From contig JADFAK010000131.1 in the NCBI GenBank assembly GCA_015665315.1, forward strand, positions 1-42,580: a stretch of DNA of 42,580 nucleotides, in the 5' to 3' direction. This document shows positions 28,569 to 42,580 of this stretch, piece after piece. The notes beneath the pieces are model-generated. The model made no database searches. It had not been told where the DNA came from and saw nothing but the letters and a program-made list of their open reading frames with translations. Position numbers and translations under genes: made by a program. Source of the stretch: Flavobacteriales bacterium (GTDB taxonomy: Bacteria; Bacteroidota; Bacteroidia; Flavobacteriales_D; Sanyastnellaceae). The first letter of the stretch is position 1; every line of letters starts with the position of its first letter.

Positions 28569-31250
28569 CTATTTTAAAATGACCAGTCTCGACAGTTCAT
28601 TGAAATTGCTACTCGAAGAAATAACGAAATAAATCCCAGGTTCAATTTGTGGTAAGGGCAGCACAATTTCGGCATTCTCATCTTCCAGCATTTGCCGATT
28701 GCTAAGGACAACTTTTCCGTAGGAATCGACGATTGTGGTTTCCAAATAGTCTTCTTCAACGCCAGTAATGCGCATATACAATACCTGTCCTTCATTGGGG
28801 TTCGGATAGACGCTGATTTCTCTAGCTATCCCCATGGAATTCAAGTTTTTATTGTCACCAGCGAATGTATTGCTCTGCCTTTCTAAATTGATATCCATAG
28901 CGGCTGATCCCAATTGAACCACATTACTTCCATCAAAGCAAGGTGGAAAAACACATGATCCGTCGTCCAAAGTGGCCAAGGAATCGAAATTGCACGCAGA
29001 GGAATCCGTACAACCTACGATACCAAAATCGCAATCCCACCAAGGAGTTGTAGCGCAAGGGTCAAAATCCATCGCCTCGGGATCAGTACAACCCTCAACT
29101 TCAATAAAACTAACGGTGAGCAAGCAGGTGCCCTCATCTCCATTGTAGCCATCAATTTGGATAAGGTAAGTTTGTCCCTGAACCAACACATTTCCTTCAT
29201 TGCAATCATAGTCTATCAGAGAATATAAACTCACTCCCCCATCATCGTCGTCGCTCAATATTGTGCCAGAGCAGCCGTCATACAGTGCGATTTGAGTATC
29301 GTTGAAAGTTCCTGTTCCATCATCGCTGGTTTCGATGACGATGGCCCCACCGTTGGACGGGGCTATAAAGCTGAACCAAACGTCATTTTCAACAGAAGCG
29401 TCAATCCAGGAAGCTCCGACTCCTCCATCGGGTGTAGCGCCTAAGTTGTTGACGGGGATGGGCTGACCAAAAAACTCGATGGGAAGGGCATCGCCGCAGC
29501 CATCATTGGCAGCAGAATACAAGCAAGTTCCGTCGTCAATTCCAGCTTCTTCGTTGTAATTGTACGCAGTTGGATCCGTACATCCACATGCTGTGGGTAG
29601 GCCAATGGAAACCGACGATGACAGTCCATTCGTGTGGGTTCCGGTAGCAAGGACAAGTCCGTCGGCATTGATAAAAGTATATTGAGCGCCATTCCAGGAA
29701 TCTCCAAAAGCGTCGTACATAATGAAAGTGTAGCAATCATTAAGGCCGCACAAGGTGACCGGTGCATTGTCGTTCGATCCACCTTGCATAACAATGTCGT
29801 CGTTGCTGTCCACTAAGGCCCATGAAATTTCCGAATCGTAGTCACCACCTCCGACTTCGAGGAAAATACAATTGTCGTAACAACACGACATGTCCTCTAT
29901 ATTCGCGAGGGGATTGAAGTTGCAAGCGTCGGTTGCAGTACAACCAAGTATTTCAGGGTACACGCAATTCCCATCTTCAATGGTGGCACACTCTTCAAAA
30001 TTCAAGGCTTGGCTATCGGTGCAACCTGGGTTGTCATATAGCGTAATGCTTATATCGCATGTACCCCATTGTGCCCCATTACCGTCTAATTGGACAAAAT
30101 AAGTTTCACCTCCAACTAGCGATGTACCTGCCACACAACTGAAGATGACACAAGCATGAAACATTTGTCCTAGATCCTCATCATCGTGAATTAAGAGCCC
30201 TCCGCAAGCGTCATAAACGGCTAGCTGCGTATCGGTTAACGACCCTGATCCATCATTCCAAGTTTCGATCCGTAGGATGCCGCCTGAAGAAGGAGCTTCG
30301 AAGGTGAACCACACATCATTGTCGACCGAATTGTCTGCCCAGCTCAAGCCGACTGGTCCGTCGGGAGTGGCTAAATAGTTCGTCACATTGGTCAAGGAGC
30401 CGTCGGTCGGAAGTGGCATTGCATTTTCACAGAGGTCATTGCTGGGCACGTAGAAACAGCTTCCATCATCACATACAGCTGTCGGATCAAAGTTGACCGC
30501 TGTGGAGTCAGTACATCCTGGAATGCACGGGGCACATGAGGGATCTGTTGGAAAGTGAAATCCAATCCCAGAACCGTCGAGATCATCGCCATTCACGTAA
30601 TGACAATCTCCAACTTGATACACAGGAGATTCGGGATCTCCCCCATCAAAAACGAGGGTATTCAAGTTATAGAGCAGCTCATCATTTGAATCGATGGTTA
30701 TCTGAGCAATGAGCACAGCATTGTCCATGCCGATTCCGAGTCCATTGTTGTTGCAACTTTCACCCGGTATTGAAGACCAGCTGCCTTCGGTGATGGTAAG
30801 ATTGGGAGTAAGTCCAGCTCCTTGAAAGGACTCTTCGAAACTAGTATCACTTGGAAGGGTTGAGGAATAGTCTACGGGATTACCGCATTCGATAAAGCTG
30901 CCGTCATAAAAGTCGCTGCCTACCCATCCGACTGTCACAAAAGAATCGAAGCATAAAGTGGGGTTGAACATGCAGAAGGCCGTTGTTAGAAGATCTCCAG
31001 TAATTGAACCTTGATCTTGGTTGAATACTTGTTCATTCTGACTTCCAAGAACCAAGTAGTCATCATCGCTGGAATAAACGCTTACGAGTATATCATCGGC
31101 ATCTTGCAGATTGGCGAAAATCTGGTAAGTAGTGAATCCAGGAGCGGCCTGGTCTATGGCGACAATGGAGTGCGATATATAGGATACCTGACCTTGAATA
31201 CAAATGGCACAAGACAAGCATAGGCATATTCCCAATGATAGAGCTTTCAT
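28569..31250 (-). CDS. Large secreted GCTD-repeat protein with T9SS sorting domain (893 aa)
   Basis: The signal peptide (MKALSLGICLCLSCAICIQG) is followed by an N-terminal domain of about 220 residues (VSYISHSIVAIDQAAPGFTT and following) shared with the 1315-aa neighbour. Then come about six cysteine-rich units of the form GCTDxxAxNFxxxAxxDDGSC. Between them are two PPC-like beta domains beginning NDLCENAMP and NDGCGDALP with the motif VENDVWFSFIAPSNGG, and one SFDSE/GDGWNGA-type module (here GGDYDSEISW and DAFGDSWNGA). The last ~80 residues (SVYPNPNEGQVLYMRI ... GIYFVISSS) are a T9SS type-A sorting domain, so outer-membrane export and cell-surface attachment or release are expected. Acidic and Ca-binding-looking. 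An adhesin or matrix role is inferred. Confidence 0.88.
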   Translation of the reverse strand: MKALSLGICLCLSCAICIQGQVSYISHSIVAIDQAAPGFTTYQIFANLQDADDILVSVYSSDDDYLVLGSQNEQVFNQDQGSITGDLLTTAFCMFNPTLCFDSFVTVGWVGSDFYDGSFIECGNPVDYSSTLPSDTSFEESFQGAGLTPNLTITEGSWSSIPGESCNNNGLGIGMDNAVLIAQITIDSNDELLYNLNTLVFDGGDPESPVYQVGDCHYVNGDDLDGSGIGFHFPTDPSCAPCIPGCTDSTAVNFDPTAVCDDGSCFYVPSNDLCENAMPLPTDGSLTNVTNYLATPDGPVGLSWADNSVDNDVWFTFEAPSSGGILRIETWNDGSGSLTDTQLAVYDACGGLLIHDDEDLGQMFHACVIFSCVAGTSLVGGETYFVQLDGNGAQWGTCDISITLYDNPGCTDSQALNFEECATIEDGNCVYPEILGCTATDACNFNPLANIEDMSCCYDNCIFLEVGGGDYDSEISWALVDSNDDIVMQGGSNDNAPVTLCGLNDCYTFIMYDAFGDSWNGAQYTFINADGLVLATGTHTNGLSSSVSIGLPTACGCTDPTAYNYNEEAGIDDGTCLYSAANDGCGDALPIEFFGQPIPVNNLGATPDGGVGASWIDASVENDVWFSFIAPSNGGAIVIETSDDGTGTFNDTQIALYDGCSGTILSDDDDGGVSLYSLIDYDCNEGNVLVQGQTYLIQIDGYNGDEGTCLLTVSFIEVEGCTDPEAMDFDPCATTPWWDCDFGIVGCTDSSACNFDSLATLDDGSCVFPPCFDGSNVVQLGSAAMDINLERQSNTFAGDNKNLNSMGIAREISVYPNPNEGQVLYMRITGVEEDYLETTIVDSYGKVVLSNRQMLEDENAEIVLPLPQIEPGIYFVISSSSNFNELSRLVILK

Positions 31251-31372
31251 AGAATCCTTCGATTAACAAGTAGATAAACGGCAATGGTAGCAACAGCGGA
31301 GGGGTGTTGTCACAAGTTTAAGGCAAACGCATTGACCTTAAATATAAGTCTTTCGAAAATATGGGGCAAAAA

Positions 31373-31402
31373 AAAAGAGCGTCTCCAAGGAGACGCTCTT
31401 TT
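31373..31402. terminator. Terminator of the 1315-aa repeat-protein gene
   Basis: AAAAGAGCGTCTCC and GGAGACGCTCTTTT form a perfect 14-bp stem with an AA loop, starting 20 nt beyond the minus-strand stop codon at 31422. On the minus strand the T-run (complement of the A-run 31368-31376) follows the stem. Confidence 0.9.
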
Positions 31403-31421
31403 CAATTATACTAGAGAATTA

Positions 31422-34400
31422 TTATTTCTCAATAACAAGTCGCTCAGTCTGCGTAGTGTTGTTCATTGTGAATCTCACATTGTAAACACCTGAAGCAAGA
31501 CCGTTAAGGTTGATTACTTCATTTACGTTTCCTGTTGCAACAGTAATCTGCTCAGCTTGAACAGTCTTACCGAACATGTCGATGATATCCATAGTAACTA
31601 CAGTAGACTCAACACCTGAAAGGTTAACGTTGAGGATCTGACCGTTGTTAGGGTTAGGATAAATCGCAGCTTCAGGAGCTACAGCAGCATCAGACAAGTC
31701 TTTCTCCTCGTCAAGCAAGTCAACAGAAGGACCATCTACGCTAGGTAGACCAATAGGGCCAACAATTGAAACACAATCAGCAGCACCGAAGGCACCTAGG
31801 GCACCGTTGGCGAAGATTGGACGAACACGTACATCATAAACACCACCTTCTACAAGGCCAGGTACCCATGAAAGACGTACGAAGTTAACAGCAGTTCCAG
31901 ATACAAAGTTGATCGGAAGCTCAGGAACATCAGTTCTTGTGAATTCCCATTCCCAATCAGCAGCACCACAAACCCATGGAGTCGAGCCGATGTACTGACC
32001 CATCCACTTAGGACCGAAGTTAGTACAGTTATCAGCTGGCTTAACCACAGAAGATGGAGGAGCATTAACAGTAATAGGACAAGAAACAGTACCAGGTACG
32101 TTTGGAAGTTCATCCGTTCCGTTAACGTTTGTAAGCATGTGCTTAACGTCGATTAGAACAGTGTAATCATCACCCCAAGGAAGTGAAGGAACATCAAACA
32201 ACTGGATGAAATCCCATGGATCTCCATCAGCAGTGTAAACCTGACCATCAGAAACAGCAGTAAAGTTGAATGTGTAAACTGCAGGTCCTACCCAGTCAGC
32301 CTTAAACATATCACATAGATTGTATGGACCTGATCCATAATCACATGTAGTTTCAGGAAGATACTGAACACAGATAGTGAAGTCTCCGTCTCCAGAAGCT
32401 GGAGTTCCGTCGTAAGCACAAACAGAAATTCTGTATGTGTCACCAGGAGTCAAATCACCTACGTTCAACCACTCATCAGTTCCGAAAGAAACGTCCTCAG
32501 TATCAACTGAGTTGTTACTTGCATCAAGAAGCTCAACAACAGCGTCGAAACCACCAGCAGAAGAAACCTCGATACGTACACCAGCTGTAACAGCAGTGAA
32601 CTCATACCAAAGGTCAGCCGAAGCTCCCAACGTGAATGCAGTACCTTCGATGTTATCAGATTGAGCAAGGCTCAAATCGTCTGAAATAGTCGAACAAGTT
32701 CCCAATACAGTCAACGAAAGTGCAGTTGCACCAGCTGGCTCATCGTTAGGAATACATGGAGCGAACGTACAAGAACCATCGTCATACATTGCTGCAGCGT
32801 CATAGTTACAAGCAGTAGAATCCATACAACCGAAACAAGATGCAGTATTCACTGAGAATGATCCAGATCCAGCTGTACCACCGGCAGCTTCATCAGCACC
32901 GTTAACAGCCCATGAAATCTCAGAATCAAATGATCCACCACCAACAGTTACCATATAGCAACCATCAAGCAGACAAAGACCGTCAGTTTGTGCGAATCCA
33001 TCAGCCATTGTACCTGAAGCTACAGAAAGTAAAGTAGCAGCATCAACGATGTCATAAGAAGCACCGTTCCATCCGTCACCGAATGAATCGATCAAGTCAA
33101 TTGACAAGCAGTTGTCATAACAGCAAGAACCGTCATCAACAGAAACTGAAGAATCATAGTTACAAGCAGCTGAATCAGTACAACCTGGGTCACAGTTTTG
33201 ACCTACGCTTACTCCAGGAGTAGACTCCGTGAACAAGCCAGTACCTAGACCACCAGTTGAAACATTTCCGTTGTTGTCATCTACAGTCCATGAAGCACCG
33301 TTCCATCCGTCACCGAATGAATCAATAGCTACGAACGTGTAACAATCAGTCAACAGACACAACTCAGCAACTTCTGCAATACCTGAAGCAACTAGGCCAC
33401 CTAGACCATCATATAGTTCCCAAGTAATCTCAGAATCAAATGATCCACCACCTACAGTTACAGTTACACAGTTGTCAAAACAACAAGCAGCTGGATCTGA
33501 GATAGACGCAGTTGAATCAAAGTTACAAGCAGTAGTATCAGTACAACCAGCACAAGTCAAGTACTCGCAAGAACCATCGTCGTTTGTTGCAGCTGAATCA
33601 AAGTTACAAGCACCTGTGTCAGTACATCCAGGAACTCCGTTTGTACAAGAACCATCGTCGTTAGACGCACATGGATCGTAGTTAGCGAAAGTTGAATCAG
33701 TACAACCATCCTTATCTGTAAACGTCAAAGTGATGTTACATGTACCAGCGTCACCGTTGTATCCGTCAACTTGAATCACGTAAGTGTTTCCACCAACTAG
33801 ACCAGTTCCACCGTCACAATCGAATGTCAACAATGAGTACAATGAAGCACCTGAATCATCGTCATCAGCCAAGATAGTTCCACCACATGCATCATACACA
33901 GCAAGCTGTGTATCGTTGAATGATGTAGTACCGTCGTCAGAAGTTTCGATAGTCAATACACCACCTGAAGAAGGAGCAGTAAAGCTATACCAAACATCGT
34001 TCTCAACAGTTCCATCGAACCATGAAGCACCTGCAGCACCGTCGGCAGTAGAACAGTTGTTTGTTACCAAAGTAGCAACACCGTCAACAGCCAGACCAAT
34101 TGCGTTAGCGCAGTCATCGTTAGCTTCAGGAAGAATACAAGTTCCGTTGTCTAGAACAGCACCTGAGTCATAGTTACATGCAGTTGTATCAGTACATCCA
34201 CATTGTCCTGGAAGGCCGATGTTAGCAACATCTTCGAATCCACCAGCGTGCGTACCTGTGTAAAGTACGTTTCCGTCATTATCAGACACTGTATACGTAG
34301 CACCGTTCCATCCGTCACCGAATGAATCATGCAATAGTAAAGCGTAACAATCATCAACTAGACAAAACATTCCTGCAGTTTCAGGAGCAATACCTGAATA

Positions 34401-35369
34401 AAGAATGTTTCCAAGTCCGTCAACAAGATCCCAAGTAATTTCAGATTCGAAACTTCCTGCAGTGATGTCAATAACAACACAGTTGTCAAAACAACATGAG
34501 CTATCATCTAAAGTTGCAGTAGAATCGTAGTTACAAGCAGCTGTATCAGTACAACCAGCGCAAGACAAGAATTCACAAGAACCATCGTCATTTGTAGCAG
34601 CTGAATCGTAGTTACAAGCAGTTGTATCAGTACAACCGTCAACAGCAACACTACAACCTGGATCAGCAGGATAGTGAAGTCCTAGACCAGAACCATCAAC
34701 CTCACCTGGATCTACAGTATTACAGTCACCAATCGTCAAGATAGGAGCACTACCATCTGCAGCATCAAAGATTTGGATGTTCAAGTTGTAAGCCAAGTCA
34801 TCCGTAGAAGGAATAGTAACTTGAGCGATCAATACTGTGTTATTCACACCGATACCGAAACCGTTGTCGTTACAACCAGCAAGGTTTGTAGTAAACCAAG
34901 CACCATCTTGCATCACCAAACTAGGAGCTGCAGGATTGGTTCCAAAAGTAGCACCAATTACAGATGCGTTTGGCAAAGAAGAAATTGTTGTAGTCGCTTG
35001 ACCACAAGCAATAGGGCTTCCATCATAGGCCGTAGTTCCATACCAACCAATTGTAACGAATGATTCGAAACACAAAGGTGGAACAAATCCACAGAAACCT
35101 GTAGCCAATCCATCTCCAGTAGTAGAACCAGAGGCATTGTTTACAACGACGTTACCGTCTCCACCCAATTCCAAGTAATCGTTACTTGCAGCATAAACAG
35201 AAGACAAGAAGTCATCTGCATCTTGCAAATCGGCAAAGATTCGGTAGGTTGTTAGACCAGGACCAGCCTGATCCACAGCATGAACGGTGTGATACACCGA
35301 GGTCACCTGCGCAGTTAATGAGCCACCCAATGTGGCGCATGCGATCAAAAACGTTAAGAGTTTTCTCAT
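31422..35369 (-). CDS. Giant secreted GCTD-repeat protein with T9SS sorting domain (1315 aa)
   Basis: Signal peptide MRKLLTFLIACATLGGSLTAQ. The N-terminal ~230 residues match the 893-aa protein (VYHTVHAVDQAGPGLTTYRI). There are eight GCTD/GCMD...DDGSC units. Three modules carry paired half-repeats, SFDSE-type (VGGGSFDSEITWELYDGLG) and GDGWNGA-type (DSFGDGWNGATYTV). One PPC-like domain (ENDVWYSFTAPSSGG) and a second PPC-like segment near NDEPAGATALS also occur. A C-terminal third without repeats ends in AIYPNPNNGQILNVNLSG ... GVYNVRFTMNN, a T9SS type-A sorting domain. Codon choice differs from the 893-aa gene (GGT-GAC-GGA-TGG-AAC for the GDGWN motif). A surface adhesin or secreted matrix protein is the likely role. 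Confidence 0.88.
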   Translation of the reverse strand: MRKLLTFLIACATLGGSLTAQVTSVYHTVHAVDQAGPGLTTYRIFADLQDADDFLSSVYAASNDYLELGGDGNVVVNNASGSTTGDGLATGFCGFVPPLCFESFVTIGWYGTTAYDGSPIACGQATTTISSLPNASVIGATFGTNPAAPSLVMQDGAWFTTNLAGCNDNGFGIGVNNTVLIAQVTIPSTDDLAYNLNIQIFDAADGSAPILTIGDCNTVDPGEVDGSGLGLHYPADPGCSVAVDGCTDTTACNYDSAATNDDGSCEFLSCAGCTDTAACNYDSTATLDDSSCCFDNCVVIDITAGSFESEITWDLVDGLGNILYSGIAPETAGMFCLVDDCYALLLHDSFGDGWNGATYTVSDNDGNVLYTGTHAGGFEDVANIGLPGQCGCTDTTACNYDSGAVLDNGTCILPEANDDCANAIGLAVDGVATLVTNNCSTADGAAGASWFDGTVENDVWYSFTAPSSGGVLTIETSDDGTTSFNDTQLAVYDACGGTILADDDDSGASLYSLLTFDCDGGTGLVGGNTYVIQVDGYNGDAGTCNITLTFTDKDGCTDSTFANYDPCASNDDGSCTNGVPGCTDTGACNFDSAATNDDGSCEYLTCAGCTDTTACNFDSTASISDPAACCFDNCVTVTVGGGSFDSEITWELYDGLGGLVASGIAEVAELCLLTDCYTFVAIDSFGDGWNGASWTVDDNNGNVSTGGLGTGLFTESTPGVSVGQNCDPGCTDSAACNYDSSVSVDDGSCCYDNCLSIDLIDSFGDGWNGASYDIVDAATLLSVASGTMADGFAQTDGLCLLDGCYMVTVGGGSFDSEISWAVNGADEAAGGTAGSGSFSVNTASCFGCMDSTACNYDAAAMYDDGSCTFAPCIPNDEPAGATALSLTVLGTCSTISDDLSLAQSDNIEGTAFTLGASADLWYEFTAVTAGVRIEVSSAGGFDAVVELLDASNNSVDTEDVSFGTDEWLNVGDLTPGDTYRISVCAYDGTPASGDGDFTICVQYLPETTCDYGSGPYNLCDMFKADWVGPAVYTFNFTAVSDGQVYTADGDPWDFIQLFDVPSLPWGDDYTVLIDVKHMLTNVNGTDELPNVPGTVSCPITVNAPPSSVVKPADNCTNFGPKWMGQYIGSTPWVCGAADWEWEFTRTDVPELPINFVSGTAVNFVRLSWVPGLVEGGVYDVRVRPIFANGALGAFGAADCVSIVGPIGLPSVDGPSVDLLDEEKDLSDAAVAPEAAIYPNPNNGQILNVNLSGVESTVVTMDIIDMFGKTVQAEQITVATGNVNEVINLNGLASGVYNVRFTMNNTTQTERLVIEK

Positions 35370-38300
35370 AATGATTAAGATATATAGTTAAACACTAGCT
35401 ATTTAAATAAAAGTAGGGCCGACCGAAACCGGCCCTACTCTTTTGGTTAATCTTTACGATAATATTAACAAGCTACACCAAACTGTCCAAGGAACAGTAG
35501 AAGGTCTTGCGTGTTAGTGATTCCATCGTCGTTCAAGTCAGTAGGACATGCGCTACCAAGTGTGAACGTACAAGAACCATCATCATTCGTGATCGTTGGA
35601 TCTGAAGTATAGTTATCTGCATCTGGATATGTACATCCAGCACAAGAAGTATACTCACAAAGCGTACAATCACTCAATGGAGGAACAGCATCATAGTTAC
35701 AAGCTGTTGGCTCTTGACATGCGAAACATGTACCAGCACCTACAGAGAAGTAAACGTTAGAAACTGGAGCACCACCTGAAGCAGGTGAAGAAGCACCAAC
35801 AATCAACCATGAGATTTCAGAATCGAATGATCCACCACCAACGTTGATATAGTAACATCCATCAAGTAGACAAAGAACATCAGCTTGGAATGCACCAGCG
35901 GCTAGAGTTCCAGAACCTTGTGAAACGCCAGACGTTGCATCAAACACTTCGTAAGTTGCTCCGTTCCATCCGTCACCGAATGCATCGTTCAACTGAATTG
36001 TTACACAGTTGTCGAAACAGCATGATCCGTCGTCGATAGTCGCACCAGGAGTGAAGTTACAAGCAGTTGTGTCAGTACAACCAGCACAAGTCAAGTACTC
36101 ACATGATCCATCTTCAGTATCAGCAAGTGAATCGAAGTTACAAGCGATTGGGTCAGTACAACCACAAATGCCTCCGCCCAATACGAACGTGTAAACTCCA
36201 GCACCACCAGCAGCAACAGCGTTGCCTAGGTCATCAAACAAGTTGAATCCAACTTCAGAATCAAATGATCCACCACCAACAGTCAATGTATAGCAGCCAT
36301 CATCACAAATACAGAAGTAGTCATCTCCAAGCTCGTTTCCAGCAAAGTTGTCTGTGTCAGAACCTTCTTGAGCAGTATCGATGTCACCAGAAGCAACAAC
36401 GTTACCTAAACCATCAGTGATAGAGTAAGTAGCTCCGTTCCATCCGTCACCGAATGTATCAACCATATCCATGTTGAATCCGTATCCTGGTCCAGGAACG
36501 CAAGCAGCACATAGACAAGAGAAGTAGTCACATGAACCGTCATCAACGTTTGCAGTTGAATCGTAGTTACAAGCAGCAGTTCCCATACAACCAGGAACAA
36601 CAACCTCACACTCGTGAGAGATAGTGTATCCTTGTGGAGTTCCACTTACGTAAACGAAGTAAACCTCGCCAACTACAGAAACAAATTGCAACCATACGTC
36701 ATCAGATTGGAAGAATCCACAGTCTGCACCAGCTTGGTTGTCATCAACCTCACTAGCGAAACATGAGAATGTTCCAGCACAAGTCTGATCAGAAGAAGTG
36801 TAGATATCCATTTGCGTGTCAGATACAGAGTACTCACCTGAACCACCGTCACACGTACGGATAGTATGTAGGTCACCTGTTCCAACGAATGAATACCAAG
36901 CACCGATTCCAGGAGAACCGTTACATCCAGCTACAAGTAGTGGAGCGTCAGCTGCAGTAGCACAAGCCAATGAACCAGCTAAGTCAACAGTACCACAAGG
37001 AAGTGCAGTAGCGTTCAAACAGTCATCGTTAGTCAAAGGATCTCCGATACAATCGTATACACATGAACCATCGTCGATGTTTGCACCTGCAGGTACATCG
37101 TAGTTAGTTGCAAATGGATCAGTACAACCCAAGATACCACAATCAGTAGTGAACTCAAACTCACCACAGTTGATTGGATCAGTTGTGTAAACGAAGAAGT
37201 AGTAGTCAGTGTTAGCTGTCAACGTAAAGAACGCAGACAAGTCACCAGCACAAGTACCAGTTACTAGAGGACAACAAGCAATCTCAACGATGTTTCCACA
37301 TCCTAGGTTACCAAGATCTTCATAAACAGTCATACCTACAGTACCACCAGAGATGTTAGTAACGTTGAAGTTAAATGTATCACAAGTACCAGAGTTTTGG
37401 TAGAACCAAACACCGTAAGGAGTTGCGAAAGCAGGAGTACATGCATCTGGTGCATCAGGACCAACACAACATAGGTTACCTGGGAAGGTTACACCATAAG
37501 GCTGGAAGATAGCATCAGCACAATCATCGTTAATCGAAGTTGAACCAGTACAGTCAACACAGTTAACATCCAATAGGAAGTCACCAGTTGCACCACCGAA
37601 TCCGTGAACCAAAATGTAGTAATCTACACCTGGAGTCGTATTGAATACAAACTCAGACAAGAAACCAGTACAGTTCGGGCTGTCATCGTTACCACCTAGA
37701 CAAAGTAGGTTAGAACAATCAGGAGCTGCTTCGTATACAGAGATACGTGTATCAAATCCAGAAGTTGTGTTACAAGTAGACAAGAAAACTTGGTCACCTG
37801 TTCCATCAAATACATACCAAACACCAGGACCATCTACTGCAGTTCCACAGTTAGTTCCAGTCAACAACTCATTATCTTGAGAGTTGATAGAAGTTCCTGC
37901 AACCTGAATACCACAAGTAACAAGCTCAGCATTCGAGCAGTCGTTGTTGTCCGGAGGACATACACATGAACCATCGTCATTGTTTGCATAAGGGTTGAAG
38001 TTCAAGCAAACTGCATCAGTACAACCATCAATAGCACAAACAGCACCACCAATTGGGAATCCAGAAGGACCGAATGGAGCACCACCAGCGAAAATAACGT
38101 TACCTAGTTGATCTTCGAAAGAGAAACCAATCTCTCCGTCGAAAGTTCCACCACCTACAGATAGAGAGTAGCAACCATCAGCCATACAGATGAAATCTGT
38201 TTGAGCATCTCCAGCTACAATCGTACCTGAAGCAATAACAGCAGCAGTTACAAGATCAGAAATCTGGTAAGTAGCACCGTTCCATCCGTCACCGAATGAA

Positions 38301-39435
38301 TCAGTCATAATCATAGACATCAATTGCTCACTTGGATCACAAGTAACACATGAACCATCGTCACAGATTGCCGAAGGATCGTAGTTATTTGCAGCAGTAT
38401 CAGTACAACCTACAGTTCCACCCAATGCAAATCCAATAACCTCAGGACCTGCACCAGCAGCCAATGTACCTGAAGCAATTACGTTTCCTAGTTCGTCAGT
38501 TGCAGACCATGTAGCGTTGTCCCATCCGTCACCGAATGAATCAGTCATTTCCATGTTGTAGCAACCGTCAAGCAGACAGAAAGTATCGTTAAATGGAGCA
38601 CCGCCAGAAGCGATTACGTTACCCAAGTCATCAGAGAAAGTGAATCCAAGCTCAGAATCGAACAATCCACCACCTACAGATAGAGTAACACATGTGTCAT
38701 AACAGCAAGAACCGTCATCAGCAGCTGCCAATGAGTCATAGTTACAAGCAGTCGTATCAGTACATCCTGGAGGGCATGCACCACCGTTTACTTGGAATAC
38801 GTGATTGATTAAATCAGCAACACCCGACTGTGGGTTGTCAGCACCATTCAATACCCAAGAAATTTCAGAATCAAATGATCCACCACCTACAGAGATACCG
38901 TAGCATCCAGTCGCAAGACATAATTCGTCAGTCGCTGAAAATCCAGTAGTAAATGTTCCAGTTGTAACAACCAACAAAGTGTTCATATCAGTAATAGTGT
39001 ATGAAGCACCGTTCCATCCGTCACCGAATGAGTCGATCATGTCAACAGACAAGCAGTTGTCGAAACAACAAGATCCATCGTCAATTGTAATACCAGCACC
39101 ACCATAGTTACAAGCGGTAGTTGTGATACAACCGATACATGAATAATCACATGAACCATCCTCAAGCGTTGCTAGAGAATCAAAGTTACATGCACCTGGA
39201 TCAGTACATCCAGCACATGTTAAATACTCACAAGAACCATCTTCAAAGTTGGCTGTTGAGTCGTAGTTACAAGCAATCGGATCTGTACAACCCGCAACGA
39301 AACATGGCAATGAAGTTGGATTGGCAGATACAAAAATTGTAACTGTTCCACCTGTACCAGTGAATGTTCCAGATGCAATAGCTGCACCATTGCGTGTAAT
39401 TACATATGTAGCACCATTCCATCCGTCACCGAATG
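33061..39435 (-). repeat. In-frame DNA repeat family encoding FGDGWNG
   Basis: A 22-nt core (plus-strand CCGTTCCATCCGTCACCGAA plus TG) encoding the FGDGWNG motif occurs nine times. Exact copies start at 33064, 33298, 34303, 35961, 36435, 38277 and 39009; near-exact copies lie at about 38517 and 39414. Three are in the 1315-aa gene and six in the 1424-aa gene. Flanking bases (GAATGAATC) are also often kept. A second shared stretch of about 55 nt (TACAACCAGCACAAGTCAAG core) occurs near 33540 and 36075. Such identity at synonymous sites points to recent duplication, gene conversion or strong codon selection. Confidence 0.85.
35412..35439. terminator. Terminator of the 1424-aa repeat-protein gene
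   Basis: AGTAGGGCCG and CGGCCCTACT form a perfect 10-bp GC-rich stem around ACCGAAAC, 26 nt past the minus-strand stop. On the minus strand it is followed by TTTTATTTAAAT. It separates the 1424-aa from the 1315-aa gene, 43 nt before the latter's start, so the latter depends on read-through or an unseen promoter. Confidence 0.85.
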
Positions 39436-39739
39436 AATCAAGTCCTTCAAACACGTAACAGTCATCTACTAAACATAGATCAGTTACTGAAGGCGCACCA
39501 CCCGAAGCTACTAAACCAGCGGCTCCATCATACAAATTCCACGAAATCTCAGAATCGAAAGATCCTGACGTAATTGAAATCTGGACACAGTTGTCGTAAC
39601 AACAATCCAGTGCATCTACGTCCGTAGATACATAGTTACAAGCTGCAGTGTCATTACACCCAGCTTGCGCGTCAATGGTCCAAAAGGCTAAACAGCCTAA
39701 GAAGAGGACCGAAGCTAACTTCGTAAAAGCTTTCTTCAT
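35465..39739 (-). CDS. Giant secreted GCTD-repeat protein with C-terminal dockerin-like loop (1424 aa)
   Basis: Signal peptide (MKKAFTKLASVLFLGCLAFWTIDAQA), then repeats start almost at once (GCNDTAACNY). About thirteen GCTD-type units are present, several degenerate (GCITTTACNYGG, GCMGTAACNYDS, FACQEPTACNYD, GCTYPDADNYTS). Six SFDSE-type and six GDGWNGA-type half-repeats alternate. A central region of about 400 residues holds three NDDC-starting PPC-like domains (DNNDCSNAELVTCG, INDDCADAIFQPYG, TNDDCLNATALPCG). There is no T9SS type-A tail. Instead the protein ends CPTDLNDDGITNTQDLLLFLGQFGVAC-like (written here in part): a single EF-hand/dockerin-type loop with D, N, D, N, D at calcium positions, closing with Cys. 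Secretion route and attachment are therefore uncertain. Confidence 0.87.
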   Translation of the reverse strand: MKKAFTKLASVLFLGCLAFWTIDAQAGCNDTAACNYVSTDVDALDCCYDNCVQISITSGSFDSEISWNLYDGAAGLVASGGAPSVTDLCLVDDCYVFEGLDSFGDGWNGATYVITRNGAAIASGTFTGTGGTVTIFVSANPTSLPCFVAGCTDPIACNYDSTANFEDGSCEYLTCAGCTDPGACNFDSLATLEDGSCDYSCIGCITTTACNYGGAGITIDDGSCCFDNCLSVDMIDSFGDGWNGASYTITDMNTLLVVTTGTFTTGFSATDELCLATGCYGISVGGGSFDSEISWVLNGADNPQSGVADLINHVFQVNGGACPPGCTDTTACNYDSLAAADDGSCCYDTCVTLSVGGGLFDSELGFTFSDDLGNVIASGGAPFNDTFCLLDGCYNMEMTDSFGDGWDNATWSATDELGNVIASGTLAAGAGPEVIGFALGGTVGCTDTAANNYDPSAICDDGSCVTCDPSEQLMSMIMTDSFGDGWNGATYQISDLVTAAVIASGTIVAGDAQTDFICMADGCYSLSVGGGTFDGEIGFSFEDQLGNVIFAGGAPFGPSGFPIGGAVCAIDGCTDAVCLNFNPYANNDDGSCVCPPDNNDCSNAELVTCGIQVAGTSINSQDNELLTGTNCGTAVDGPGVWYVFDGTGDQVFLSTCNTTSGFDTRISVYEAAPDCSNLLCLGGNDDSPNCTGFLSEFVFNTTPGVDYYILVHGFGGATGDFLLDVNCVDCTGSTSINDDCADAIFQPYGVTFPGNLCCVGPDAPDACTPAFATPYGVWFYQNSGTCDTFNFNVTNISGGTVGMTVYEDLGNLGCGNIVEIACCPLVTGTCAGDLSAFFTLTANTDYYFFVYTTDPINCGEFEFTTDCGILGCTDPFATNYDVPAGANIDDGSCVYDCIGDPLTNDDCLNATALPCGTVDLAGSLACATAADAPLLVAGCNGSPGIGAWYSFVGTGDLHTIRTCDGGSGEYSVSDTQMDIYTSSDQTCAGTFSCFASEVDDNQAGADCGFFQSDDVWLQFVSVVGEVYFVYVSGTPQGYTISHECEVVVPGCMGTAACNYDSTANVDDGSCDYFSCLCAACVPGPGYGFNMDMVDTFGDGWNGATYSITDGLGNVVASGDIDTAQEGSDTDNFAGNELGDDYFCICDDGCYTLTVGGGSFDSEVGFNLFDDLGNAVAAGGAGVYTFVLGGGICGCTDPIACNFDSLADTEDGSCEYLTCAGCTDTTACNFTPGATIDDGSCCFDNCVTIQLNDAFGDGWNGATYEVFDATSGVSQGSGTLAAGAFQADVLCLLDGCYYINVGGGSFDSEISWLIVGASSPASGGAPVSNVYFSVGAGTCFACQEPTACNYDAVPPLSDCTLCEYTSCAGCTYPDADNYTSDPTITNDDGSCTFTLGSACPTDLNDDGITNTQDLLLFLGQFGVAC

Positions 39740-40409: not shown

Positions 40410-40892
40410 CTACCACATTTCGGCATGCCAACTTTGAGCGAATGGCACAAGCCATCCTTCGCGCAGCTCACCTTTCGTTTTGACCAAATTATTGAACACC
40501 CGTGTCTCATCTGTAATAAGACCAGCCTTGCGCATAGCCCAGAACTCATGCATTTGCGTTATCGCTAATCCCCCCTCCTTTATCCAAGCTATGGCCATAC
40601 GATCAAAGAAGTCGACCGACAGTAATTCACCCAGCTCTCGCACCAAGGCCACACTCGCATCAATCGAACATCCCGTAACACCACTCGCCTCTTCGTCGAC
40701 GGCAAATACCAGAAACCTCTTGCGTTCCAGTGCATAGGAGGCTTGTAGCGGGCTACCATGCGCAGACCATGAGTCCGTAAACTCATCACATTTCTTTGTT
40801 ATAAGTTCTATTTCTTGATCAGACAACTCACGAGAACATTGGTAGACCCAAATTCTGGAATGGTCGGGCATGGTGGAAAAGTCAAGTTTCAT
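40410..40892 (-). CDS. Conserved Bacteroidota cytosolic protein, unknown function
   Basis: This 160-aa protein lacks a signal peptide or membrane segment. It contains VYQCSRELSDQEIELITKKC, FTDSWSAHGSPLQASYALER, FLVFAVDEEASGVTGCSIDASVALVRELG and a late region FWAMRKAGLITDETRVFNNLVKTKGEL. Relatives are widespread in Bacteroidota and are sometimes labelled ABC transporter ATPase, but no Walker motif is present here, so that label is unsupported. The start overlaps the 3' end of the exosortase-partner gene by 11 nt, so it is the last gene of that operon. Whether it takes part in sorting is unknown. Confidence 0.8.
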   Translation of the reverse strand: MKLDFSTMPDHSRIWVYQCSRELSDQEIELITKKCDEFTDSWSAHGSPLQASYALERKRFLVFAVDEEASGVTGCSIDASVALVRELGELLSVDFFDRMAIAWIKEGGLAITQMHEFWAMRKAGLITDETRVFNNLVKTKGELREGWLVPFAQSWHAEMW

Positions 40893-41424
40893 TTGCTGTG
40901 GTATTGATTAAAAGTGAATAAGCGGGCACCAAGATCATCAAAGGGACTGGAGACTGCAAGGCTCCGAGAATCTTTCTAGCAAAGCCATACCCTTCGGTAC
41001 CGTGGCCAAAGAACCTGGAAACGGTAAAAACCGCAACAGCAACTAGTAAAAAGCCAAGATAAGCCACGACAATCTGCCTCGTTAAGTTTTTGCTCCCCGT
41101 CCACAGGGAAAACGCTTTGATCACTATTGCCGCATTCAAAACCAAGAAAACCAAGGCGGCCATCCATTTCAATACGACTAACTGCCCCTCATCCAGTCGC
41201 ATCAGCACCTCAACGGGCTCGTGGTTAAAATAGTAATCAAAGGGATGGTCTTTTCTAAACATCTGCAATGCAGCCACTCGCTCTGGACCAGACATTTGGG
41301 CGTAGCCCTGAATATTTACCGCCTGTTCTAGGATGAAATTGGTTTCAATCTTTACACGTTCTTGAAAAAAGCCGAATACAATTCCGACAAAAACGAGCAG
41401 GAAGGCAAGGGCTTTATTTTTCAT
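40882..41424 (-). CDS. Exosortase-associated membrane protein
   Basis: This 180-aa protein has an N-terminal membrane segment (LAFLLVFVGIVFGFF). An extracytoplasmic part of about 65 residues follows (VKIETNFILEQAVNIQGYAQM ... DYYFNHEPVEVLMRL). Three more membrane segments come after it (LKWMAALVFLVLNAAIVI, QIVVAYLGFLLVAVAVFTV, PVPLMILVPAYSLLI). Its place directly after an exosortase and its topology match the XrtX-associated membrane protein type; the name is from memory of that family and needs a profile search. The start overlaps the exosortase 3' end by 11 nt, so the two are very likely made together as partners. Confidence 0.7.
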   Translation of the reverse strand: MKNKALAFLLVFVGIVFGFFQERVKIETNFILEQAVNIQGYAQMSGPERVAALQMFRKDHPFDYYFNHEPVEVLMRLDEGQLVVLKWMAALVFLVLNAAIVIKAFSLWTGSKNLTRQIVVAYLGFLLVAVAVFTVSRFFGHGTEGYGFARKILGALQSPVPLMILVPAYSLLINTTANET

Positions 41425-41962
41425 CGTTGGGCTTTGCCTCTTTTAGGCCGACATCTGAAAGTCGATTGATCCAAAAATACCACAATCCGAAAACGAACAA
41501 GTACACCAATACTGTAAAGGTATAATCATGATGAAATTGCAGGGACTCGGGGCTCACAGAGACGATGATCACCAGGGCAACTATGCGCAAGGCGTTGATT
41601 AGATGGACACACAACAAACCCAGTGGTAAAAACCACAGTTTATGTTTGATTGGGCCCGGGAAAGCCATGACAAAAACTGCCAACAATGACAACAGGGTAA
41701 TTCCGTCACACGGCGCACCAATTTCGATCCAGTGCGAGTCGACTATTCCAACGAAATTGGCAAATTCTCCCACATGAGGCCGCAATTCGTAGCCTAGAAT
41801 ATTGAGAATGCTCTCGGTAAGCCACACCAAGTTATCAATAATGAAATGATCGAAATTGGTATGAGGCTGCAGGTAAAACTCGTAAAGGAGGTACCACAAT
41901 AAGTAGACCCCCGGAGCAATAACAATAAATCGAATAAAAGGATTCGAGAACGAAAGCTTCAT
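41414..41962 (-). CDS. Exosortase/archaeosortase-family transpeptidase (XrtX-like)
   Basis: This 182-aa integral membrane enzyme has the three catalytic residues of the family placed as expected: C85 in GAPCDGITLL, R126 in HLINALRIVAL, and H144 or H145 in FHHDYTFTVLVYLFVF. The C, R and H blocks sit at or in membrane segments. Exosortases cleave a C-terminal sorting tripartite signal and are thought to transfer the substrate to a polysaccharide or other acceptor. It is short compared with EpsH-type enzymes (about 260-300 aa) but normal for Bacteroidota minimal forms. Start 41962 lies one base after the stop of the substrate-like gene; an ATG at 41986 overlaps that gene. Confidence 0.88.
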   Translation of the reverse strand: MKLSFSNPFIRFIVIAPGVYLLWYLLYEFYLQPHTNFDHFIIDNLVWLTESILNILGYELRPHVGEFANFVGIVDSHWIEIGAPCDGITLLSLLAVFVMAFPGPIKHKLWFLPLGLLCVHLINALRIVALVIIVSVSPESLQFHHDYTFTVLVYLFVFGLWYFWINRLSDVGLKEAKPNDEK

Positions 41963-41963
41963 C

Positions 41964-42173
41964 TCACCCTTTACGCGTGAGATCATGGGCTTTCTTACCA
42001 CCATAGGCAATGCCAGCAGCAATAAGGAAACCTAGTCCGCCATCAATAGGACAAGGACCGCCAAAAGGACCGTCGCAAGGTGGTGGATTATCTTCTGGAA
42101 AAGGCTGAGCCCCAACGATCATTGGTAATGCGAGCCAGGCACAAACGATGCCCCAAGAGATGATTTTTTTCAT
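41964..42173 (-). CDS. PID-CTERM-like mini exosortase substrate
   Basis: This 69-aa protein has a signal peptide (KKIISWGIVCAWLALPMIVGAQ). A mature segment of only about 20 residues follows (PFPEDNPPPCDGPFGGPC) with two cysteines and five prolines. Then comes a C-terminal sorting-type signal: P42-I-D44, GGLGFLIAAGIAYGG as a short hydrophobic helix, and a basic tail (KKAHDLTRK). This matches the PID-CTERM class known beside Bacteroidota exosortases. The exosortase gene starts one base after its stop. If cleaved at PID, almost nothing but a proline/cysteine peptide would remain on the surface. Confidence 0.82.
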   Translation of the reverse strand: MKKIISWGIVCAWLALPMIVGAQPFPEDNPPPCDGPFGGPCPIDGGLGFLIAAGIAYGGKKAHDLTRKG

Positions 42174-42201
42174 GTTAATCTGGTTACTGAGCGTACATCG
42201 A

Positions 42202-42285
42202 CAAAGCTACGACATTTTCAAAACACTGCGAACATCACATCAAAATATCATTTACGCCAGTTGAATCGGCAGAATACTATATTTG
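42202..42285. promoter_or_regulatory. Divergent promoter candidates for the exosortase operon and the Wzz-like gene
   Basis: On the plus strand TATATTTG (42278-42285) is an exact TAnnTTTG match 25 nt before the ATG at 42311, with a weak -33 (TTTA at 42251-42254). On the minus strand TAGCTTTG (42209-42202) lies 28 nt before the ATG at 42173, with TTCG at 42232-42229 as a weak -33 at 19-nt spacing. Confidence 0.45.
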
Positions 42286-42310
42286 CACTTCGCTTCCGTA
42301 AATCGCGACA

Positions 42311-42580
42311 ATGTCACAAAAACCAAGTAACCTCATTGATCCTGAAGATCTCAGGCCCATTTTCAAATTCCTGGGAAAGAATTGGTACCTCTTGCTTTTG
42401 TTCCCCATGGCGGCCATGGTGCTTGCCTATTGGTACACGCATACCTTGCCTAATATTTACGCGGCAAAGACGGAAATCCTATTGAAAAGTGCCGACACGT
42501 ACGACTATCAAAGTCAGCTCTACAGCAACCTAGGCTACTATTCTTTGATGCAAGATGTTACGAATCAAAAAAGGGTTTTA
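42311..42580 (+). CDS. Wzz/GumC-type polysaccharide chain-length/export protein (5' part)
   Basis: The first 90 codons are present; the gene runs off the window. After a polar N-terminus (MSQKPSNLIDPEDLRPIFKF) comes a membrane segment WYLLLLFPMAAMVLAYWYT. The adjoining periplasmic start is TLPNIYAAKTEILLKSADTYDYQSQLY. This is the beginning of a Wzz domain, as in GumC or tyrosine-autokinase co-polymerases for exopolysaccharide export. The missing part would tell whether a cytoplasmic BY-kinase is fused. It is divergent from the exosortase operon, a common pairing because exosortases occur with polysaccharide loci. Confidence 0.75.
   Translation, partial: MSQKPSNLIDPEDLRPIFKFLGKNWYLLLLFPMAAMVLAYWYTHTLPNIYAAKTEILLKSADTYDYQSQLYSNLGYYSLMQDVTNQKRVL

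Follow-up and report, generated by a model that had tools for sequence, protein, structure and literature searches.

Exosortases have been proposed to cut cargo proteins at a C-terminal motif and to pass the new C-terminus to an unidentified nucleophile, according to the available part of the paper on PEP-CTERM and EpsH (Haft 2006, PMC1569441). Here, a locus of this kind was analyzed in a 42,580-nucleotide stretch of a Flavobacteriales bacterium (contig JADFAK010000131.1, positions 1 to 42,580), referred to below as the window. At positions 40410-42580, the gene of a micro-preprotein of 69 amino acids (aa) with a PID-CTERM signal is followed by those of exosortase X (XrtX) and a partner membrane protein. 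The identity of the locus as an XrtX/PID-CTERM system is close to certain; it is a dedicated exosortase X locus and adds a member to families that NCBI has already curated. Two features appear to be new: a cysteine in front of the PID motif in the window's order, and PID-CTERM genes paired with those of module-bearing proteins that are exported by the type IX secretion system (T9SS).

The locus resembles the NCBIfam models NF046081, NF046080 and NF046082 in its families, its gene order and its tripartite C-terminal signal, and two of the three cut-offs were passed. The partner scored below the NF046082 cut-off, as did the matches in 67 of the 73 genomes of the order that matched this model. 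The cysteine before PID lies outside the matched part of NF046080, and a T9SS-module neighbour does not belong to the NCBIfam models. In the literature searched (subscription papers and database notes lay outside its scope), no description of the pairing or of the order's pre-PID cysteine was found; the term 'PID-CTERM' was absent from it, and none of the titles listed for exosortase X dealt with this system.

PEP-CTERM/EpsH, as far as the available text describes it, has in common with the window a motif, helix and basic tail, Cys-x-Gly and Asn-x-x-Arg, and a polysaccharide neighbourhood (PMC1569441). The third EpsH motif is His-x-x-x-Gly, whereas the window's XrtX has His-x-x-Thr-Phe. EpsH has at least eight transmembrane segments and several cargos per genome, in contrast to a 182-aa enzyme with one peptide-sized cargo in the window. 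A sister exosortase, XrtF of Flavobacterium johnsoniae (TIGR04128), likewise has a dedicated membrane partner. For the genes of XrtF and this partner, a role in biofilm formation and the colonisation of surfaces is reported, and the accessible portion of that study left the XrtF substrates open (PMC10936215). The window's XrtX reached 78.7 bits against the XrtF model, under its cut-off of 90 bits.

The last system for comparison is T9SS type A sorting with attachment to anionic lipopolysaccharide (A-LPS; PMC7468200), which is genetically coupled to PID-CTERM genes in other lineages, as set out below. According to a speculation of Veith et al. 2020, an amino-acid-modified sugar chemistry may be common to T9SS attachment and CTERM systems; PID-CTERM is absent from that paper (PMC7468200). 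The cargo of the window differs in being a micro-protein with no match to the T9SS sorting domain TIGR04183.

The exosortase X locus and its cargo

Four open reading frames (ORFs), all on the minus strand, share positions 40410-42580 with one divergent plus-strand gene. The parts of the system itself are as follows.

41964..42173, minus strand: PID-CTERM micro-preprotein, 69 aa (NF046080), the genome's only PID-CTERM protein over the cut-off
42108..42173, minus strand: putative signal peptide, residues 1-22, with cleavage between A and Q placed by eye
42051..42107, minus strand: predicted mature peptide QPFPEDNPPPCDGPFGGPC, residues 23-41 (codon changes; Cys before the motif)
41967..42050, minus strand: PID-CTERM signal (PIDGG, hydrophobic helix, basic tail), residues 42-69; NF046080 covers residues 42-62
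41414..41962, minus strand: XrtX, 182 aa, with Cys85, Arg126 and His145 (NF046081; invariant residues; AlphaFold2)
40882..41424, minus strand: relative of the XrtX-associated membrane protein, 180 aa (sub-threshold NF046082; conserved position after XrtX)

The cargo and XrtX genes are separated by 1 nt, and XrtX and the partner gene overlap by 11 nt; the coordinates thus agree with the junctions of 1 and -11 nt given in the first-pass annotation. The three-gene order of cargo, XrtX and partner described there was also found, and the interval contains in addition a fourth ORF (40410-40892) that had not been described. The 182 aa of XrtX were counted from ATG; an alternative TTG start at 42022 would give 202 aa.

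To the curated NCBIfam hidden Markov model (HMM) NF046080, the cargo matched with 38.2 bits (cut-off 26) at residues 42-62 of 69, which bears out a 69-aa protein with PID, hydrophobic helix and basic tail. XrtX passed NF046081 narrowly, with 173.1 bits against a cut-off of 170, and the superfamily model TIGR04178 with 55.5 bits (cut-off 23). It failed the XrtY model (73.7 bits, cut-off 160) and stayed under the cut-off of Pfam PF09721 (20 bits, cut-off 25.7). Both the PID-CTERM and the exosortase X cut-offs were therefore passed, and the lack of a profile match that the first-pass annotation had considered as a counter-argument was not observed. Profile searches of the window's genome gave this single exosortase match and no PID-CTERM protein over the cut-off other than the 69-aa cargo.

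Among the EpsH-type motifs, C-x-G (CDG) and N-x-x-R (NALR) were present in XrtX, and H-D-Y-T-F stands in the place of H-x-x-x-G. C85, R126 and H145 were invariant in the alignments (28/28, 74/74 and 43/43 sequences). Residue 144 is Asn in most relatives, and H145 is therefore the conserved His; of the C85/R126/H144-145 set proposed earlier, position 144 did not hold. The predicted catalytic Cys, Arg and His of XrtX are thus conserved. The AlphaFold2 model of XrtX had a mean predicted local distance difference test score (pLDDT) of 91.4; its fold search returned no PDB relative at E ≤ 0.001, and no relative of known structure was found below E 0.2 by sequence.

The partner matched NF046082 at residues 79-170 only, with 44.7 bits under a cut-off of 75. 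It is a relative of the XrtX-associated membrane protein and by cut-off no member of that family. A homologue was found in 73 of the 75 loci of the order with gene calls, in 71 of them directly after XrtX. Its AlphaFold2 model had a mean pLDDT of 94.2, and its fold search likewise gave no PDB relative at E ≤ 0.001.

The N-terminus of the cargo is hydrophobic and ends in A-Q, as judged by eye without a signal-peptide program. The A-x-A rule with cleavage before Q, also applied by eye, leaves 19 residues between signal peptide and PID, one fewer than the 20 previously stated; the cargo is peptide-sized as claimed. Compared with the homologue of one other species of the same genus, the 19 mature codons showed 12 synonymous and 0 non-synonymous changes, the 22 signal-peptide codons 2 and 10, and the 28 PID-CTERM codons 10 and 3, respectively. 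In this species pair, the predicted mature peptide is under purifying selection, and the mature codon changes (12 vs 0) argue strongly that the payload is not neutrally decayed.

The cargo across the order and the phylum

Gene families, gene order, co-occurrence, purifying selection and module pairing were all determined by computation. For the order, 199 genomes were surveyed, with PID-CTERM matches taken at E ≤ 0.01; related genomes in these and the following counts are non-independent samples. PID-CTERM was found in 84 genomes (75 over the cut-off), as a single match in 81 and as two in three. XrtX was found in 105 genomes and a partner-model match in 73. All but one of the 84 PID-positive genomes carried XrtX, the exception (genome G030; G and L numbers are our labels for genomes and loci) being a sub-threshold PID match within a 1434-aa frame that reads as a regulator. 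Another 22 XrtX-bearing genomes had no PID match. Among the 81 XrtX loci read, 66 had a linked cargo and 15 had none by the search pattern.

For the cargos, 65 of the linked sequences were analyzed; that of G018, with two Cys, was left out. The median mature length was 22 residues, an approximate value because the cut rule misplaces some signal-peptide ends (e.g., G010, G116, G083, G089 and G110). A Cys stood no more than 5 residues before the motif in 65/65. Exactly two Cys were counted in 58, and the other seven had 6, 6, 8, 8, 10, 12 and 12. Of 13 additional copies found in the order, which are unlinked, second copies or lie on split contigs, 12 had an even count and one (L185) had three Cys. 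These almost always even counts favour disulfides, and loops of a few residues, for example CWPPPC or CDGPFGGPC, are likely disulfide-closed. A single lipidated Cys, as in MYXO-CTERM, was considered in view of the Cys that precedes the motif, and was rejected on the even counts and on the lack of Cys in most cargos outside the order.

In two of the 65 linked cargos, from G186 and G016, PIS or PVS replaces PID. At the loci L165 (G006), L103 (G016) and L123 (G186), a small secreted protein lies by XrtX with no motif, PVS and PIS, respectively, and retains Cys residues and a C-terminal hydrophobic stretch. These non-standard motifs suggest drift of the signal.

Genomes of the window's order thus typically carry a single tiny cargo, and its peptide size does not set this locus apart. 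Many PEP-CTERM cargos are larger than peptide size.

In the phylum, 395 genomes were surveyed for PID at E ≤ 0.001 and for an XrtX-like exosortase at E ≤ 1e-10. Both were found in 62 genomes, the exosortase only in 53, neither in 280 and PID only in 0. When XrtX reached at least 160 bits, PID was present in 48 of 51 genomes; a lower-scoring exosortase was found in 14 PID genomes. Among the 150 PID matches listed, there were one to nine copies per genome, and the open frames had at most 200 aa save one of 995 aa. This frame, at L406 (G362), carries a PID-like tail and is the only large candidate among those matches. As Rosetta-stone evidence for a module-PID fusion it was discarded, with no module match in the 529 aa examined.

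Outside the order, 83 of the 84 cut cargo sequences had no Cys. The stretch between their hydrophobic segments had an approximate median of 11.5 residues (n = 84) by a rough cut rule; it includes two misread cargo frames (L310 and L316) and two truncated ones (L351 and L282). One set of families has longer cargos of about 50-100 residues, of low complexity and with a recurring P-x-W-A, seen at L355, L362, L395, L401 and L404.

Pairing of PID-CTERM genes with T9SS module proteins

The strongest clue to the system lies outside the window and is absent from the first-pass annotation: in other lineages, the cargo gene often comes directly behind genes of T9SS-exported module proteins. Outside the window's order, 90 PID loci were taken, of which 87 were resolved (all except L357, L361 and L366). 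In 79 of these 87, a same-strand ORF of at least 150 codons ended no more than 700 nt upstream of the PID gene, and 68 of the 79 ORFs matched TIGR04183, the model of the type A sorting domain of the T9SS, at E ≤ 0.001. The 20 genomes searched for this domain had between 22 and at least 150 of them each, with no more than 150 candidates scored in seven genomes; at about one gene per kb, we estimate that T9SS-domain genes make up a few percent of the genes in the PID-source genomes.

A module HMM was built from the roughly 340 residues before the sorting domain. Of the 68 linked proteins, 33 served to train it; its only independent tests are the 33 held-out proteins and those of the order. It matched all 33 held-out PID-linked proteins, 15/15 PID-linked proteins of the window's order and 6/7 others. 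Among 20 control T9SS proteins without a PID gene, a small set from related genomes drawn from the top of the T9SS list, it matched two (both from G304). With training proteins included, 68 of the 87 loci were module-linked, and at least one such locus was present in 33 of 44 genomes. The module was found in 150 of the 395 phylum genomes, including 60 of the 62 with PID (up to five matches scored per genome). Thus, PID genes outside the order are mostly module-linked.

The module, which belongs to T9SS-secreted proteins, spans roughly 325 positions in our alignment A4. No Pfam domain was found for it, save a weak FMN_bind match in 1 of 18 stretches.

Within the order, nine loci run in the order T9SS-type protein, cargo, XrtX, seven of them in one family and two in another. 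Their large proteins have 548-1060 open codons, the shortest stopping at a contig end, and lie 7-44 nt before the cargo. All six tails tested from these loci passed the TIGR04183 cut-off, and a seventh (G185) was below the Pfam cut-off. In g7, a genus of the window's own family, the cargo lies apart from XrtX and, in 7/8 loci, behind a module-bearing frame of 494-981 aa. The tails of these g7 proteins look dockerin-like, and one of the two tested gave a sub-threshold dockerin match. Elsewhere in the window's genome, four module proteins are encoded, whose tails look T9SS-like by eye.

Surroundings of the locus and possible fate of the peptide

The other two genes of the interval are as follows.

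40410..40892, minus strand: 160-aa conserved neighbour, probably not part of the system, with a match in 24/24 genomes of the class searched
42311..42580, plus strand: Wzz-type chain-length determinant, divergent (Pfam Wzz, 1.7e-7), incomplete at the contig end

The 160-aa ORF overlaps the partner gene by 11 nt, and its product had no NCBIfam or Pfam match. The 24 matching genomes of the class include its own, and 7 of them have no XrtX match; outside the class, 9 of 75 genomes matched. The protein occurs with or without XrtX and is therefore a widespread neighbour, probably not a system part. It is a gene conserved across the class that stands outside any Pfam or NCBIfam family.

The Wzz-type gene stops after 90 aa because the contig ends at 42580. 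A gene of the Wzz/AAA_31 cluster, of which one annotated representative carries both domains, lies divergent from XrtX in 54 of 66 loci of the order (counting XrtX loci for which genes were called and 1.7 kb or more of upstream sequence was available). The polysaccharide context inferred from the window alone was therefore borne out. These gene-cluster counts rest on single-linkage clusters, with 6 of the 81 loci left out for having no XrtX in the crude gene calls. Transporters near XrtX loci, an ABC ATPase cluster in 28 genomes and an ABC-2 permease in 15, also lie among glycan genes. At L182 (G100) and L185 (G169), extra PID-CTERM copies lie directly 3' of apparent glycan genes, which from their sequences we take to encode a DegT-type aminotransferase and a PglC-like sugar transferase. 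This is another polysaccharide tie.

Three giant secreted proteins of 893, 1315 and 1424 aa are encoded on the minus strand at 28569-39739 of the window. The 1315-aa protein passes the T9SS type A cut-off, and the 1424-aa protein has, by eye, GCTDP-type repeats and a dockerin-like tail. Members of their single-linkage cluster occur in 27 genomes and in most cases lie three to five genes behind XrtX.

From the family assignments and statistics given above, we infer the following scheme of cleavage, acceptor and function. Sec would export the 69-aa protein, which would lose its signal peptide, and the C-terminal helix would keep the cargo in the inner membrane, PID facing the periplasm. XrtX, with Cys as nucleophile, Arg and His as helpers and the partner as accessory, would cut near PID and transfer the Pro-rich peptide, probably disulfide-closed in this lineage, to a surface-bound carrier, for example a lipid or a glycan belonging to the neighbouring polysaccharide system. 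Once on its carrier, the peptide may help to assemble the surface, perhaps by docking or attaching the module proteins that the T9SS exports, or may serve the polysaccharide in which these are embedded. A tiny anchor, signal peptide or polysaccharide cap, as suggested in the first-pass annotation, are candidate roles of such a peptide.

Cleavage of the cargo by XrtX is probable. Processing, carrier transfer and a surface-assembly role, taken together as the best explanation, have about an even chance of being right. That the peptide reaches a surface carrier and has a role linked to the T9SS is put forward tentatively. Somewhat more speculative is the idea that two C-terminal sorting systems cooperate, the XrtX product being a surface peptide tag that would anchor, cap or dock the T9SS-exported module family.

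Several observations weigh against this scheme. Module genes are not mostly PID-linked: of the 131 module matches listed in PID-positive genomes, 60 precede a listed PID gene (within 1.5 kb) and 71 have none listed over that distance. Furthermore, 90 of the 150 module genomes carry no PID, so that the module family is wider than the pairing. Nineteen of the 87 phylum loci were not module-linked, and among 14 further loci an upstream module match at E ≤ 1e-10 was found in 5; several cargo frames of these 14 were misread, and the count rests on the upstream matches. Across most of the window's family, the cargo sits beside XrtX and has no module protein next to it; at the g7 locus L176, the unlinked cargo has no module protein in front; and in the window's genome, no PID gene was seen within a few hundred bases behind the four module genes. 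The peptide itself offers no obvious amine to a T9SS sortase, because Lys occurs in the mature peptide of only 1 of the 65 linked cargos and an N-terminal Gln may cyclise. The disulfide is no common function of the cargos, given the near absence of Cys outside the order. A demonstrated substrate or acceptor of exosortase X was not found in the searched literature.

It is conceivable, at rather long odds, that the T9SS neighbourhood is incidental and that the micro-gene hitch-hikes behind surface-protein genes with no functional tie. The frequent occurrence of module genes and genomes without PID fits such hitch-hiking, as does the position of the cargo beside XrtX, not a module gene, in most of the order. 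However, the pairing recurs in several families, nine loci are joined with XrtX itself, the g7 cargo still follows a module protein when separate from XrtX, and only two of the control T9SS genes carry the module.

We regard as unlikely that XrtX releases a free secreted peptide (signal, structural or bioactive) and performs no conjugation. Such a product would agree with the peptide size of the payload, with the strong purifying selection seen on it in the one species pair compared, and with a Cys count that is almost always even, disulfide-like, in the order. But a genome can have as many as nine copies, many of which follow different T9SS proteins, and this fits a structural partner better than it fits a signal; the nearby transporters sit among glycan genes and read as polysaccharide export, although a peptide exporter is conceivable.

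Just as improbable is a micro-protein that stays uncut and, in the form of a two-helix hairpin or a tail-anchored adaptor, serves to regulate or dock the T9SS or polysaccharide machinery while PID binds XrtX. The short stretch between the hydrophobic segments outside the order would suit an adaptor of this form, and cleavage is only predicted. However, Cys, Arg and His are kept in every aligned XrtX, and PID was not found without an exosortase in 395 genomes, which points to catalysis. An origin of the cargo by decay from a larger PID-CTERM protein is very improbable: the 995-aa frame of the distant genome G362 is its one support, against payload codons under selection, no other PID protein over the cut-off in the window's genome, and a micro-cargo that is usual in the order and among the listed phylum matches.

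Processing by XrtX followed by transfer to a surface carrier therefore stays our preferred reading, at the graded strengths given above. The XrtX locus could reveal to what an exosortase attaches its cargo. With one enzyme, one partner and one 19-residue payload, the system is small enough for purification and mass spectrometry. The pairing of PID-CTERM genes with the T9SS module gives a concrete lead to the purpose of the payload. If the two sorting systems do cooperate as suggested, this exosortase would produce a linker peptide made to order, and not a sorted protein.

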